Shown: one piece after another, positions 25,413-34,232 of the stretch
Numbering within the stretch: position 1 is the stretch's first letter
How the letters are laid out: every line of letters starts with the position of its first letter
From: Paramecium tetraurelia
Lineage: Eukaryota; Ciliophora; Oligohymenophorea; Peniculida; Parameciidae
Direction: 5' to 3'
Assembly: GCF_000165425.1 (NCBI RefSeq)
Contig: NW_001799637.1
Coordinates: 186,001 to 250,000 of the forward strand
Length of the DNA: 64,000 bases
Notes under the pieces: generated by a model
Seen by the model: the letters and a program-made list of their open reading frames with translations, nothing else
Told to the model about the DNA's origin: nothing
Database searches by the model: none
Position numbers and translations under genes: made by a program

Positions 25413-27670
25413 ATGTCTAAAAAGCAAAATTCTTAGTCAACTCCAGAGATTCTACAATATAAAGTCCGACCACAAAACCATTATTAAATCGAGTAGTTGG
25501 TTTTAAATGACATGAAAAAAAAAATACTAAATGATGAGATGAATTCCATCTAATTCTATGATATTATACAGCCAGATATGGTATTCCTGATTCATATTTA
25601 GAATGAAATTGTGGCCACTAATCCAAAGGATCTAACGAAAAAGCCAATCAAATTGCATAAAAAAGTAAAACGCTCAGATTTAGAATCAAATCTCAGAAAC
25701 AAATTAATAAATGAACCTGGTGGTAAATTGTTACTCTAAGAAATGTAACTACTCTATTTATTCTAGTTATGAAATTTTGGATGAAGACGATATGACTCAA
25801 TAAGTAAAACCTGTACTTCACAAAGAAGAGTAATTCAAGGGAAATACATAGTATAAGTAAGAAAGTGATGATTTGATGGTGGCCAATTTGGACTAATGGT
25901 GGAAGTAAGTGAAAGTGAAGAAATAGTAAGAATTTGAGAAGAAGTAATTAGAGCTTGAGAAAGAAAGTATTTAGCAATTTTCTTAATGTAGAATAGGTAA
26001 TAGCCTAAATCTAAAAGGCAGTATCAATCTCATCACTGAGGAGAGGTGCTGTAGATAAAAGAACCAATACCACGATCTTGCCAGCCTTCCCCAAATTGAT
26101 GTAATCTCAATCATCTGATGATAAATCTCCAAAAACTGAAAGCTAAACTCTTTTTCAGGCTAAAATCAAAGGTTCTTTGGCCAAATTATCAAATTAAAAG
26201 AAGGCTGAATTGTTACATCAAGATATTGGTTTGGTCAAATAATTAGATAAGTATCATTAATAAGGATCGACCTTAACTTAATAAGAATTAATTAATATTG
26301 AATAGGCTAGGCAGAAGTAATCACATGAAGAGAAATAGACAGATACACTGATTTTTGATTACACTGTAGAGGGGCTCAAAAATAGTTTACATACAAGAAT
26401 CAAAATGAATTTAACCCATTTCCTAAATGCAAATGAGAGAGCTGTTTTTTATGAAAAATAGACCCAATCAATTTTACAATAGATAAATTCGAAATTAGAT
26501 AAATAAAAAAAGATTGTGGGTAAAAATGAACGTGATCTCGAAAATTTGAGGATGGAAAATCATGAGATCTACAATAGACTTAGGTCTATTGAAAATATAT
26601 AAAAACAATTAAAAGAAGAGCTGGGCAATGTTGGAAACAACAACAATAATTAAGTCTAAAAATCCAACAAATCATCAAATGTGGATTTTTATATGGCCTC
26701 AGTTGGAAAATAAAATGAAATAGACTCTTAATTAGAAACTATGAAAGATAGTTATAAGAAATACAAAATACAAATTTAACTCAATTTTAAATAAATAGAA
26801 AAATTAGAAGCTGAAAACTCTAAATTAAATAAAAATAATAAAGAATTATTAAAATCTATTTAAGGATTTCTTTAGGAATTGCTTAAAATTGGTCTCGATT
26901 GTAGAAAATAAGGATTAAGTTGGATTATTAAGGCTATTTGGGATACAAATGAAAAATTAAGGGATGAGAATTTTCCTTCTTATTTAGATTCTAAAGGAAG
27001 AGAATTCCTAATATTAAAAGCCAAAAAAATGGTTGAATTAAATGATTTATTTATTAGAGCTCATCAACTATTTGGAAGCTACCATGGAAGGTTAGAAACC
27101 TCATAAGATAATTTAAACAATTCGATATTATCCATTTTATCTAAAAATCATTTTTCGTAAATTGATTCCGAAGAAATTAAAAACAAGACATTAAGAGAAA
27201 GAAGAATGAAATCTAGTGGAGAGATCAATCTGTTACTTAAAGGATTAAATAGGGAAGAAAAGTAATGTGTCTAAGGAACTCTTACATCGATTTTTTAAAG
27301 TAAACAAACTTTAAATGACATAATTTACACTGAAGCACAAAAAAAGATTTAGAAAATGTTTAAGACTGAAACAAGCATGGCATTAGAGTAATCGTTTATA
27401 GCTGAAGATAAAGAGAGATTAATAAGAGAATATTAATAAATTTAACAAGATATTGAAGCGAAGGAGATTATGTTTAAGAAATTTGAAGATTTAGAACTGT
27501 AGAGGATTGTGAAAGAAATAGATTACAAAAAGTATTTACATAGGTAATATATATCATATAATTTGAGATTTTCTGTGGAACCCTTATAAGTATTATCTGC
27601 ATTATTTGGATACGTGAAGGCAGAAAGAGAATTGATTAAATAAGGTATGATGCATATATCTAATAATTGA
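25413..27670 (+). CDS. Long coiled-coil protein, 736 residues
   Basis: Not recognised. Introns 25745-25766 and 25997-26021; the second must be read as 25 nt (ending GCAG), since the 21-nt alternative leaves the wrong frame. The N-terminal ~200 residues are polar. Residues ~220-620 contain long heptads (for example QILQQINSKLDKQKKIV, MENHEIYNRLRSIENIQK, QIEKLEAENSKLNKNNKELL). The end is also helical (KERLIREYQQIQQDIEAKE). A flagellar/basal-body or cytoskeletal role would be usual for such ciliate proteins but is not shown. A further 27-nt intron at the very 3' end is possible. Confidence 0.72.
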
Positions 27671-27684
27671 GTTATTAAAATTGA

Positions 27685-30600
27685 TCATTTATTTATGGTT
27701 GTCTTCTTTTGACAAGGCATCATCTATATCTGTACATTTTTCTTTATAGAGATTTTTGATGCTTATTACTACTATTATTATTTCTGTAATTATTGTAAGG
27801 ATGTATTTGTAGGATCCTCTTCTTATTATGCATTTTCTACAATTTCATTTAGCTATTTGTAAATAGGAGGTTTCTGAGTTTTATTAAATCTTTTCAAAGT
27901 GGCTGTACTGCTACTTGAACTAGTTGGTTTTGCATTACCCCCAGTTGAGGGTTTGACTTCAATGTCATCTATTTTTTTTGTATTTTTTTTATAATTAGTA
28001 ATAGGATTTTATTCAACAACTCTCAGAATGCTCATAATATCTTTTTATTTTGAATCTTCAATAGTGGCTATCTCCATAAATATGGATAATGTATCACCTA
28101 ACCATCTTAAGATAAAGACTCCTCCTTTATGTTTTTTTTAGATGAGATTATCAACTTTAATTCCCTTTTTGAATTCTTGTTTAAGATTTTCTATCAACAT
28201 CTTTTCCTATTATATGTGTTTGGCCCTATCATTTTTGAGACTTGAAATTTTATTTTTTACTAAGAGTAGCCATCTATTTAAAAAGTGTTTTCCAAAATCA
28301 TGATTCAATTATTCATAAAACTAAAGGGCATTTTCAAAATTAATTTTGGCCTAGAGTAAACTTCGTTCTTAGAGTGAAATGTAACCACTAGCAGCTTCAC
28401 AACATGCCACACCTAAAGTACAACCCTTTTTAATGAACATCTCCTTGGCCTATTTAAATGCTTATTGTGATTTCTTAGGTTCCTTAAGCATATAGTACAC
28501 ACATGCTTTCGTTTTGATAATATTGGCAGTGAATAATAAATCTCCATAAAAATATTAATATGCCCAATTAATAAATTTAAGACATTCATTATATCTTCTT
28601 TGAAGTAATAAGATTTAACAATAATACAAGATTAGTTTCTGAATTTTATCTTTTTTATTTGGTTATTGAGCCGATGAAGTAGATTCTTCTTTGGCCTTGC
28701 CTGATTTGGCTCTGTCTCCCATTTTAGGAATGATTTATCTTTTAGATAAAGGTTGGTGTTGCTTCTCATCATCATCGTATTTTTACTTTTTCACATCTTA
28801 AGTAATAGGTTTAATTTGTTAATCTAGAAAAGTAACTCTCTGAGTTAAGGGATTGGGATTAGGAGAAGATTTAATAAATTTAGGATCGATTGCTTTCTGG
28901 ACTTAAGTTTAATCACTTTGAATAGCTTAAGGTATTTGAGATTATTAAAATATTTATTGGTTTTAGGATTCTTAAGGATTGCTAGAGTCATCTATTAGAT
29001 CAGGTTTAACATTGTTGGAGTTGATCTTAAAGAGTTTTGATTCAACATAATTGATGCTCATTCCATTATCCGAATAATCCTTATTAGATTATAATTCATC
29101 CTCTTCACTAATTGTAACACCAACTTTGGCAATGGAAAAAGATTTTCTTTTTGGACCATTAGTCATATAATCATCAGAGATTTAATCATATTTAAAGCTG
29201 GATATAACAGAACCAGTGAAACCAACTTTGGAACTTAGATGGGATTTTTGACTATTGTTTTCGTATTTCTTTTGCATCATTTCCAAGTTTTCTTTGGTTA
29301 AAGGGAGATTGAATGTTTCATCATCGTTTTCATCGTCTTTTTTTTCTTATTTTAAAGGTTCAATCTCAAATTAACCATTAGATATGACCTCGAATTCTCT
29401 GAAGATAGCATTCTTTATATTTTATTCAATTGCCAAGAATTCATCATTTGGTTGGTTGTTAATGTCGTGTGCTTATGTACCTATTTAATTATAATACGTA
29501 TATGACTTTTTTAGTAACAATTTAACAATATTATGATGATAAATCCTTTTCCATTTTTAGTCCAATTTACTTTCTGCAAATTTAACCGTGAAATTATATA
29601 AACAATAATGAGTTTTGGTATTTTTCTTTGCTTGCAATAACAACGAGCTCTTAATCAATTGAGTTGCCAACTTTTCCCATCCTGGACCCCAAACATCGTT
29701 TAATTCATCATTATAAATTCCACAAGGTAATAATCCTAACATACCAAAAAAGATTGCTGCCTTCTCATATCTTTCCACTAAGTTAGCCCAACTTAAATTC
29801 AATGCCACTCTCAATGATCTTCTTTCCTCTTCAGTCACTCTACTTGAAATAGGTAAGTCCATCAACTATTTATATGATAATTATTAGTATAATTCTTTTA
29901 GAGTATAATTCTCCAATAGTCCTGAAGATAAGATTATACCTTGAGGATGGCCGTCTAAAATTTGAAACAAAGCATGATTGGAGAATTTCGAGATCAATAA
30001 TTTATCATTCAAAGTATATTTATTTAGTAGATCATTGCAACCTAACAATTCTTCGACTTCCTAAATAGTAATTTCTCGAGAGGATGAATTAATGAATAAT
30101 TAAGCACTTTCTTCTTGAGGCAATCCTTCAATCTTGATTACTCTTCCTTATTAAAGAATTTCACTTCTATTTGTGATACATAAATGACATTTACAATTTG
30201 CCAAAATTAATTCAAGAAAATCCACAAATACATCCCGATCGTTAGAATGCATAATTAGATCACAATTATCAAGGATGAGAAGGAATTCCTAATTTTTAAT
30301 TGTTTAAATGATTTAAGTAACCATCAATTATTTAATTTCATAATTACTCTACAATGCTAAATTTGGCATGAAGATTTAAGCGAATCTACTAGCTACACTA
30401 TCAAAACTATCACATTAATTTAGTTAGATGTAAACAACTCCATTTTTGAAAATATTCCTTTATGCTATATAAATACTAATTTCCTTAATTAAAGCACTTT
30501 TACCGATTCCTAAAACTCCTTTGATATTAATAAGTTGATTTTAAATGATTTTATCAATGACTTCTTACATCTGTTAAGATCTTCCAGTGAAATTGGATAC

Positions 30601-31842
30601 AAGAGAAGGGAGATTATTTTAGTTCTATTGAGGAGTGAGATCCTTAAACTCCCCTTCTCTCAATAACCATGTAGAACATTGATGATGTTACTTTGTAAGC
30701 AAAAGGAATTTATTTTCCTCAGCAAAAGGGAATCTCCCTTCAACTTTGACTTAGGTTTTGGCAGCTAGAAAGGCTTAACACACGGTCTATTGTCCTTTGA
30801 TTAAGCCATGATAGAATGACCTCGCAAAGACACAGCAGGCTTCATCCATTATTTGTTCCTTTGTATGTACACAAATAACATGTTCAGCTCCTGCCTAATG
30901 GAAGACTTCGCCTATGAGTTTGGAATGACAGCTGGCTACAAATACAAAGAGGATTGGAGATTTGAGTTTTTGGAGGCACAAGAGGATTTGATTTGCTGAA
31001 ACTAATTGCGCTACTCCATGCAATTACTCAAATAAGAGGTAGGACTATTGATTTGATTCCATGTAGATTCCATGTCCTGCGTAATGCAATGCTTTTGGGT
31101 TCAGATCGAGGGCTTCTCCAAATCTATCCATTCTTGCTGGAGTTGACATAAATTTGATTTCTGCTTTGACATCTATAAATACTTCTTTGATTGAATTCAA
31201 CTCCTTGTTTATTTCCAATTTCTACAACACTTTCTTGGTGGAATTATTGGTGATTTGTAGGAGTGGTTGGGAGTACAAAAATAAAAAATCAATCTAAGTT
31301 TGTTTTGTGGGAGAGAGGGAAGATTTCAAGGGAATCAGAGACATGAGGAAAGTTCGTAAAGGGTCACTGGATGTGGTATCTGTAATGGTAGTCATGGTGT
31401 CAGAAGAACATTCTGATGTTTTCGGTTTGAGTAATTATTCAAAATCATACTCCAATGCACTTTCGAATTCTTCCTTGAGGTTTGGACTGAATTTGTCTAT
31501 CATTTAATAGGTTTTAGAGAACAACTATTTTTAAACGTTGTTGGGCTTTGTTTATGAATCGATTGTAATATTTGATACAACTTCCTGTTCAATGAATTAA
31601 TCCAAATCTGGCAATGGTTCATCGAAGAACAGGTCGTTCACAAAATCATTTGGCTTCGGTGTTATGTAATCTATGTCTTATTAGCTTTTGCTGATTTGTG
31701 GAATATCAACTTTGTTGTGTGAAATCATAGTCGTATTATTTCTTTTAGGTTCTTATTGCTATATAACAAAATTTCCAATTTTAATTTCCCCCTAATCCTT
31801 CATCAAATTTTGGAGGATTTTCATCAATGCTTCTTAGTCCAT
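27685..31842 (-). CDS. CHAT protease-like domain - STAND (NB-ARC/NACHT-like) NTPase - TPR-like protein
   Basis: A single uninterrupted frame of 1386 codons (1385 residues), no introns. Around residues 250-350 it shows a CHAT/caspase-fold signature: HYAGHG with the putative catalytic His (~257), then FVFVASCHSK with the putative catalytic Cys (~305). A STAND-type NTPase follows: FTGRSQ, Walker A GVLGIGKSAL (~438-447), Walker B FLLILDNCD (~526), and a GxP-like motif (DGHPQGIIL). A low-complexity Ser/Asp/Gln linker spans ~720-880. Residues ~890-1100 hold helical TPR-like pairs (RRYNECLKFINWAYQ, QQAFKQAKEMFIKKG, LLQAKINFENALQFYEQ). Known bacterial and fungal proteins with this order are NLR-like sensors whose protease is released by ligand binding; an analogous role here is inference. 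It shares a ~46-base divergent promoter with 31889. Confidence 0.85.
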
Positions 31843-31888
31843 TTAATAGTAAATATAAATAAAAAAAAAAAAGATTTAATTTCCATCT

Positions 31889-32943
31889 ATGGTTCGACTA
31901 GAGAAACTCGTCTAGTGAACAATTAGTCAACATACGTGCCCTCAATAGACAAAGAATAATTGGGTCTCCCAGGAAATGGTACTCAGAACCACGAACACCT
32001 GCCATGACCCTATCTGCAATGAAATTATTCACCTAAGGATGGACTGGTCTCATCTACAAGATGGTTGAGCCCTTATTTGCTAGGTATTCAACGATCGCTT
32101 CATCTCAAAGATTCCTCTACCGATGGATGAGAAACATTGGCTTGGATCGAGGATTGGCATTAGAAGATTTAGTCCTATTTTAGGATAGAGAATTAAGAAG
32201 AGATCCCCTCTTCGAACATATCCAAAGAGAAGGATTCCATCCCTACACTTGGATTCTCTTCAATAAAAGAAGAGCAAGATTCTCAAAAGTTGAAAGAGGT
32301 GTCAGAGGATCAACAGCTCCAGAATGGTTATAAGCAGAAGCAAGAGAGCGAATATTGGCTGATAGCGTTTAAAACATATACGAATGGGATAATTATGTCT
32401 ACCAAAATTACATGAGCGATATGACACCTACTGCAAGAGGAACCATCCTTTAAAAGCTATTGCCTCTTGAATGGTTCCTCTTTTTCGGTCTCCTCAGAGT
32501 CGACTCTTGGGACAGATACTTTTATAACGAAGTTATGTACAAGGGTCTTGAATACTCAAAAGAAGAATTGGCCAACATTCCAAAACCATTCAAAGCTCAA
32601 TTAAGTAAGCAATCTTCCAATCCCTTTAGCTACTGAAGAAGGCAGAAGACAATTTGAAATCAATGTCAATAGATTCATCGACCTCTATCCTGGATCAATC
32701 GTTAAAGAAGGGTAATTATTAAATTCAATAGTTTTTAGTGAAAAATTTGACTTCCAACGATTCTATGCTCTTGAAGCCATCAATAATAATAGAGACTTGA
32801 GCAAATTCGATTCTTCCTTGGTTTCTCAACTCAAATCTGAACTTACACAATAAGTTGAAAAGAAATCAGCAACCAAGGTCAAGAAAGTTAAACCATCATT
32901 CCCTAATTGGTTACATTCTGAAGGGAAAGGACTCTTAGCATGA
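31889..32943 (+). CDS. Hypothetical protein, 322 residues
   Basis: Not recognised. The body is secure: a long Arg/Trp/Tyr-rich soluble protein with motifs such as GSPRKWYSEPRTPAM, RFLYRWMRNIGLDRGLALED, RILADSVQNIYEWDNYVYQ and LPLEWFLFFGLLRVDSWDR, and a basic C-terminus. The start ATG 31889 requires a 34-nt intron (31915-31948, GTG donor) to join MVRLEKLV to the body; the other introns are 32605-32629 and 32712-32738 (27 nt, no in-frame TGA). The amphipathic basic N-terminus and composition resemble ciliate-specific mitochondrial subunits, but I cannot demonstrate this. It is divergently transcribed from the CHAT-STAND gene. Confidence 0.68.
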
Positions 32944-33014
32944 TAATAATGCATTACATTAAATATATAATATATTATTATTTAACCAATTCATTTAAGT
33001 CATTATTAAATCAT

Positions 33015-34232
33015 ATGAATCAACTGATTACCATTCACATTGGAGGAGCAGGATCTAACATTGGATCAAAACTATGGTATAATTTATCGTAACATCGTTA
33101 AGAAGATCTCTCCTCAATTTTTTAAGAAAATTCTCACTAATCCTATAAACCTCGATCTATTTTTGTGAATACCATAGACGATTAAGTCCCAAAATATGAT
33201 GAACCTCAATTCTCTCCTAATCAGTTCTTTTATACCAAAGAAGATACTGGAAATATATATACTGTGGGTCATTATTGTGTAGCAAAAGATTTAATTCCAA
33301 AAATATAGGACGAAATTAGAAGATAAGTAGAAAATTGCGATCATTTTTCTGGATTTCTATTTACTCATTCCATAAGTGGAGGCTTTGGCTCTGGATATAC
33401 TACTCTTCTTTCAAGTTTATTAAAGAATGAATACTAAAAGTCCATGAGCTTCAGTTTTTGTTTGATGCCATCTCCAAATTATAGAAACAACGTTATTGAA
33501 TCTTATAATTCCATAATGAGTTTGAATTCTATGGTTGAAGCATTTGATGGTGTAATATTATTACAAAATGAAGCTATCTATTAGATTATTGAAAACCAAT
33601 TAGATATTGAGTTTCCTTCATATAATGAAGTTAATTAGGTTATTACTCAGCCAATAATTTCTTTATTAAAATTCAATTAACAGTAGTCATTGCAAATGCT
33701 TAAATTGAATTTATGGAATAAAAATAAATTAAATATTTGGTCATGTTCCTTTGGACCACTAATCAATTATGATTAAAAGCACTTCTCTAAAAAAATCACT
33801 TCAAACTCTCTAAAAGATATTATATCTCAAAATTCATACATTTGTAATAAAAGTAAGCCAAACTATAAGTAAGCTTTTCTGTATGCAGAATAAATAAATT
33901 AGACTTTATTGTCGAAAACTTTATCTGAACTAGTAGAAAATAAATAGTACTCAATTTATTAGTAAGGATAAGAAGGATAGATAAAATAATTTAAAGAACC
34001 GTTTTAGTAGATCAATAGTTAGAAAGAGAATTTGGTCTTTATACATAAAAGCACAGGAATAGCAGAACAACTAAATTAATTACATAAGAATGCTTAAATT
34101 CTCTATTAGAAAAGGGCGTTCATGCATTGGTATGTTGGGATAGGAATAGAAGATCAAAGTATTAGATGGGAGTTTTCTTCGTTTGAAGAAATGTAAAATA
34201 ACTATGCAATTGATGTTAGTAATAATGAATGA
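33015..34232 (+). CDS. Divergent tubulin, alpha-like (kappa/iota-type)
   Basis: 405 residues, no introns. Tubulin landmarks are all present in order but altered: N-terminal IHIGGAGSNIGSKLW (canonical IHIGQAG...GN..W), the GTP-binding Gly loop SGGFGSGYTTLLSSLL (canonical GGTGSG), the region SFCLMPSPNY, and near the end KRAFMHWYVGIGIEDQ (canonical KRAF.HWY.GEGM). The M-loop and C-terminal acidic tail are poorly conserved and the protein is ~45 residues shorter than canonical tubulins. KRAF.HWYVG favours an alpha-type ancestor. Ciliates are known to encode rare divergent tubulins (eta, theta, iota, kappa) linked to basal bodies; which of these this is cannot be settled by eye. Confidence 0.85.

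Follow-up and report, generated by a model that had tools for sequence, protein, structure and literature searches.

Does a ciliate carry a protease joined in one chain to an NLR-type switch, and if so, where did it come from and what might it do? The question is raised by a frame of 1,385 residues on the minus strand of Paramecium tetraurelia contig C218 (NW_001799637.1), at 27685..31842 of a 64,000-nucleotide stretch (contig positions 186001-250000) that we refer to as the window. It is read in genetic code table 6, in which its 87 TAA/TAG codons decode as Gln. The original prediction described a CHAT-STAND-TPR protein, a candidate NLR-like immune sensor with a protease effector that might have been acquired by transfer. 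What is new is that its CHAT-NB-ARC-winged-helix core, judged by sequence comparison, matches a rare bacterial family, and we consider it probable that the gene encodes an old, conserved, nucleotide-switched caspase-like protease, a ciliate relative of that family.

The predicted core is confirmed by profile searches, in which CHAT, NB-ARC and NACHT each score above the curated Pfam cut-off. The CHAT caspase-like protease domain (residues 180-395; 30658..31305, with this and all other parts on the minus strand) matches PF12770 at residues 204-365 (35 bits, cut-off 24) and is predicted to adopt a caspase fold, with the SAVED-CHAT defence protease as its closest match among solved structures. 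Its His-Cys pair, H257 and C305, lies in the motifs HYAGHG and VASCHS (starting at residues 253 and 302) with the predicted spacing of 48 residues, and is conserved. The NTPase domain (residues 405-590; 30073..30630) matches NB-ARC at residues 423-588 (28.5 bits, cut-off 23.5) and, over the same stretch, NACHT at residues 438-584 (29.1 bits, cut-off 26.7), with Walker A GVLGIGKS at 442-449 and Walker B ILDNCD at 523-528; its NB-ARC nature is confirmed. A GxP-like motif (GHPQG at 631) lies in the following winged-helix-like region (residues 591-800; 29443..30072), which aligns with bacterial NB-ARC relatives and is modelled with a predicted local distance difference test score (pLDDT) of 69-89 over about residues 670-789. 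The His-Cys pair and its two motifs are retained in the window gene, in a duplicate described below and in the aligned bacterial CHATs. Outside this core, Pfam finds no known domain in the N-terminal extension (residues 1-158; 31369..31842) or in the linker (residues 801-1050; 28693..29442); a TPR-like helical region (residues 1051-1230; 28153..28692) and a C-terminal tail (residues 1231-1385; 27688..28152) complete the protein.

A syntenic duplicate on contig C67 (locus L026) is 87% identical in DNA sequence and collinear over its full length, with changes that are mostly synonymous, so the open frame is not due to chance. Compared pairwise between these two copies over 1,379 codon pairs, the ratio of nonsynonymous to synonymous substitution rates (dN/dS) is 0.045 (dS 0.81, dN 0.036); this looks like a strongly conserved working gene, under strong purifying selection. 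By region, dN/dS is lowest in the TPR-like region (0.013), followed by the NTPase (0.019 over residues 405-590), residues 591-800 (0.036), CHAT (0.037 over 204-365), the linker (0.055) and residues 1-155 (0.065), and is highest in the tail (0.080), the least constrained part. On either side of the window gene, the frame at 25934-27670 and one within 31698-32636 have similar-looking counterparts next to the duplicate, a resemblance assessed by eye on the translations. A further window frame, at 32940-34232, has a Tubulin GTPase-domain match of 187.7 bits in Pfam.

This distribution of constraint bears on the proposed role as an immune sensor, in which the TPR-like region would detect ligands of pathogen or non-self origin, and the protease would set off cell death. 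Similar domains occur in bacterial conflict systems and in fungal NLRs with CHAT domains; bacteria show the same domain order, and the nearest solved fold belongs to a defence protease. The presumed sensing region is nevertheless the most constrained of all, which argues against a diversifying sensor, and the genome yielded one close duplicate and otherwise distant matches; neither a diversifying ligand-binding region (two copies compared) nor an expanded family was found. A Pfam search of the ciliate genome found no gasdermin, although this is a weak test in which the model matched one of 14 control genomes, and that under its cut-off. As the original prediction had itself stated, no defence genes tie the locus to immunity by context: none was seen among the seven further frames of the window that were searched with Pfam (of 31 frames of at least 250 residues), and PADLOC models returned nothing. 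We therefore regard the immune role as rather unlikely.

In a different role the protein would be a scaffold whose protease is inactive or can be dispensed with, the CHAT fold being kept for binding while the NTPase-TPR part works in a housekeeping complex. The NTPase and TPR-like parts do show dN/dS below that of CHAT. The duplicate, moreover, has one extra base inside CHAT near residue 340 (near 3040 of L026), which breaks its frame, yet both pieces have low dN/dS; the base may reflect a reading error or decay. Set against this are the low dN/dS of CHAT itself and the retention of H257, C305 and the motifs in both copies and in the bacterial proteins, and we hold the scaffold to be distinctly unlikely.

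The comparison of copies also supports the gene being intron-free, as predicted: they differ by gaps of 1, 3 and 3 bases only, and identity between them stays at 75% or more in every in-frame GTA...TAG stretch of 18-36 bases. The claim that this structure is atypical for long genes here, and so might hint at transfer, finds no support among STAND genes, the class surveyed. All 11 other STAND loci above cut-off lie in single frames of 1,196-2,999 residues, some cut by the fetched ends; eleven is a lower bound, since the two genome-wide searches that gave it (69.07 Mb, 231 contigs), one with NB-ARC and one with NACHT, both failed to list the window gene. Long intron-free frames are thus usual for STAND genes in this genome, and for that reason the intron-based hint fails.

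Relatives of the full core were recovered in two of the four bacterial phyla sampled: 2 of 386 cyanobacterial genomes, sampled from the phylum of the Lyngbya genome, and 5 of 400 Chloroflexota genomes, from that of an Anaerolineales genome. None was found in 395 genomes from the phylum of Pedobacter or in 398 from that of Ectothiorhodospiraceae, each of which gave NTPase-only matches in four genomes. Family counts are lower bounds, two or three candidates being scored per genome, and the query used for the other three samples, to which the cyanobacterial pair had been added, differed from the cyanobacterial one. Among Cyanobacteria (35 of 386 genomes matched at 1e-5) the pair scored 2.9e-35 and 1.1e-33 and the next best 2.0e-15; among Chloroflexota (113 of 400 matched at 1e-20) the five scored 1e-113 to 1e-118 and the next, an NTPase-only match, 5.8e-36.

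The seven members (cyanobacterial L149 and L150; Chloroflexota L172-L176) are 22-26% identical to the ciliate protein by direct comparison. Five align with it by BLAST in one piece, about residues 182-774; L174 and L175 reach only about 491 and 479, extended to 561 and 733 by phmmer. CHAT, NB-ARC and TPR_12 are all above cut-off in the three Chloroflexota members scanned; L172 and L173, which stop at contig ends, fall outside the Pfam-scanned set. L149 has FGE-sulfatase in place of TPR, and L150 aligns with it there. A search with a CHAT alignment showed that at least 175 of 573 pattern matches encode a relative, from which 80 loci were kept; ten with a P-loop after CHAT were scanned, two of which (L054 and L075) also have NB-ARC and TPR. 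Searches of genome contigs and viral contigs with the bare protein returned no relative, nor did a search of viral sequences with the NB-ARC alignment, and phage records gave no match. Matches were present in 83 plasmid records, and the 20 matches listed cover the NTPase part only.

The origin of the gene was examined with trees. In a joint-core tree (11 rows, 578 columns, long branches, and L054, L059 and L075 as the only outside rows) the ciliate protein and the seven bacterial members separate from those three at 100/100, and the seven group together at 97/96 with the ciliate protein as their deep sister. In an NB-ARC-only tree of 31 rows, five NACHT domains of the ciliate form a separate group at 100/100, and the ciliate CHAT protein has no supported position among the bacterial NB-ARC groups. 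Trees constrained to give the ciliate protein a sole partner are disfavoured by the approximately unbiased (AU) test, whether the partner is the cyanobacterial pair (p 0.033) or the Chloroflexota five (p 0.029). That a cyanobacterium or a member of the Chloroflexota donated the gene recently thus appears very improbable, even though these two alone of the four phyla sampled gave full-core relatives: besides the disfavoured pairings, identity to the bacterial members is just 22-26%, the gene is older than a duplication with dS 0.81, and its GC content at third codon positions (0.286) and TAA/TAG (TAR) share (0.67) fall inside the spread of 15 other frames in the window, so that no odd base composition is seen. 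From the full-core relatives and the joint-core tree, an old bacterial connection is supported rather than a recent donor, on grounds separate from the hint of missing introns, which fails for this class of gene.

The bacterial genes have a further shared feature. Directly upstream of CHAT in all seven loci is a small gene, of about 110-120 residues from likely starts, which overlaps the CHAT gene in six loci and about abuts it in L188 (L163:9630-9980; L164:4695-5045; L189:6178-6519; also in L175, L188, L190 and L192). The Chloroflexota protein of L189 is 30-32% identical to the two cyanobacterial ones. Every small protein is hydrophobic in its central part (Kyte-Doolittle maximum 1.41-2.14), but a value of 1.67 occurs even in the CHAT core of P0001, which is soluble, so this alone is no proof of a membrane helix. 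Searched against six-frame translations of the window, L026, L027 and L028, the only sequences covered, a model built from the seven small proteins had no match at expectation values (E) up to 10, and comparison with the ciliate N-terminal extension gave no useful match. Pfam includes an EACC1 model; three of the seven small genes, scanned against Pfam and NCBIfam, matched no family model and not EACC1, and the NCBIfam EACC1-associated caspase model scores 14.8 on the L149 protein (cut-off 140). For the bacterial neighbourhoods, six stretches were listed as open reading frames (ORFs) and a few neighbours scanned against Pfam; the idea of a hypermutation cassette was rejected, as none of the ORFs of at least 180 residues in L163-L165 fitted a reverse-transcriptase motif pattern.

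Other CHAT and STAND loci are present in the ciliate genome. A divergent second CHAT frame on contig C74 (L027:4768-6273) keeps HIIAHG and ACCYAG. A search with this frame matches the window gene, its duplicate, a weak stretch on C2 outside CHAT, and C114:223295-224035 and C170:270648-271247 over a range including its CHAT part, the last two being known from the search match only and not from motif reading. A PF12770 search of the genome matched the window gene only, missing C67 and C74, and is thus insensitive. A CHAT-only tree does not place the divergent C74 copy. Giant uninterrupted NACHT frames occur on C206, C108, C222, C138, C169 and C90 (L029-L033 and L038), and WD40 arrays in 8 of the 11 scanned frames of other STAND loci. 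Six of 11 giant NACHT frames lie 10 kb or less from a contig end, and three loci have 126-base tandem units that are 80-84% alike. The six contig ends inspected show no evident telomere repeat, so these ends may be explained by repeats that break the assembly. The giant NACHT frames, more than the window gene, have the appearance of a diversifying receptor family.

How would the nucleotide-switched protease that we favour work? NB-ARC proteins alternate between closed states with adenosine diphosphate (ADP) and assembled states with adenosine triphosphate (ATP). In the resting state the NTPase would keep the protease switched off. Engagement of the TPR-like region by a partner or ligand would cause ADP to be exchanged for ATP and the protomers to assemble, whereupon the assembled CHAT domains would gain activity and cleave one host protein or a few. 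The trigger is most likely internal and invariant, such as stress, damage or a stage of development, and not a changing set of pathogen ligands, because the domains, the sensor part included, are conserved and no family expansion was found. The output is likely to be a regulated dismantling or a signalling cut.

Several observations weigh against this interpretation. Caspase-like proteolysis by CHAT and nucleotide-driven assembly are candidate functions, suggested by sequence and by models. The relative placement of the domains follows a low-confidence core model (predicted template-modelling score 0.43, with about residues 562-670 mostly below pLDDT 65). Foldseek matches the NTPase part to Apaf-1 (1.7e-9), CED-4 and plant NLRs, but the superpositions are poor (root-mean-square deviation about 15-20 Å, template-modelling score near 0.2), ORC/Cdc6 chains score like Apaf-1 and NLRs in the Foldseek list, and the 50 rows of a second aligner contain no NTPase chains other than ORC/Cdc6. 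Separase does not appear among the rows shown for either aligner, an absence that carries no information. Because of the poor superpositions and the ORC/Cdc6 matches, the NB-ARC call rests on sequence; phmmer against Protein Data Bank chains returned ADR1 alone, at E 0.2. The predicted TPR part is weakly supported: no repeat scores above cut-off (TPR_12 at residues 1074-1136 has 18 bits, cut-off 30.1), the NCBIfam HaaT TPR protein model touches residues 1084-1203 with 25.4 bits, far below its cut-off of 1125, and the structural model is helical but of low confidence, with a pLDDT of 58.8. The NB-ARC-only tree gives the ciliate protein no clear sister, and forcing it into a clade with the seven costs 5.9 log units (AU p 0.064); the CHAT-only tree depends on long branches. 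The pairwise dN/dS leaves room for selection for change at a few sites, and the extra base in the duplicate also counts here.

A conserved ciliate caspase-fold protease with an NLR-type switch connects one particular family of bacterial proteins with a eukaryotic protein, and may be a candidate source of the caspase-like activity seen in protists. A partial literature search found no published account of such a ciliate protein. PMC2829475 describes caspase homologues as absent from protists and the origins of their caspase-like activities as unknown. As a long shot, ciliates may have acquired a bacterial conflict-system protease in the distant past and lost its small partner; what remained would be a conserved 'apoptosome' in a single chain, a source of caspase-like activity that might serve, for instance, to destroy the old macronucleus when cells conjugate. 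Programmed nuclear death in Tetrahymena, judged apparently caspase-independent in the same paper (PMC2829475), weighs against this idea; one nuclear degeneration is reported in PMC4021357 to be blocked by zVAD-fmk.

Comparison with known systems places the ciliate protein among several protease switches. Its NTPase part, with the poor superposition already noted, resembles Apaf-1 and CED-4 in the Foldseek matches; these act on caspases in trans, whereas the ciliate protease sits in the same chain as its switch. The TPR-CHAT protein of Craspase is not known to have an NTPase domain, and differs in that its activator is a CRISPR RNA-protein complex. It shares a caspase-like His-Cys pair, TPR and allosteric activation, the pair closing from about 7 to about 3 Å upon activation (PMC9729208). 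Fungal NLRs with a CHAT domain, set beside the ciliate protein by description only, are linked to gasdermin (PMC12881547), the difference being that no Pfam gasdermin match occurs in the ciliate genome; they show that protease-NLR logic can serve cell death in eukaryotes. The EACC1-caspase two-gene conflict system (System 4 of PMC7159879) has a small 5' gene with a glycine-rich hydrophobic centre, followed by a gene for a caspase fold whose C-terminal domains vary, a layout that the bacterial family shares, although the three scanned small genes and the L149 protein fail EACC1-related models. The Lyngbya CHAT-NB-ARC-TPR protein (L054) has the same domain order as the ciliate protein in 791 residues, but its pairing alone with the latter is rejected (AU p 0.0017). 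Closest in design is the bacterial CHAT-NB-ARC-winged-helix family, which has the same order, His-Cys motifs, Walker A and winged-helix region, and to which the ciliate protein adds its 158-residue N-terminus and the long linker before the TPR-like part.
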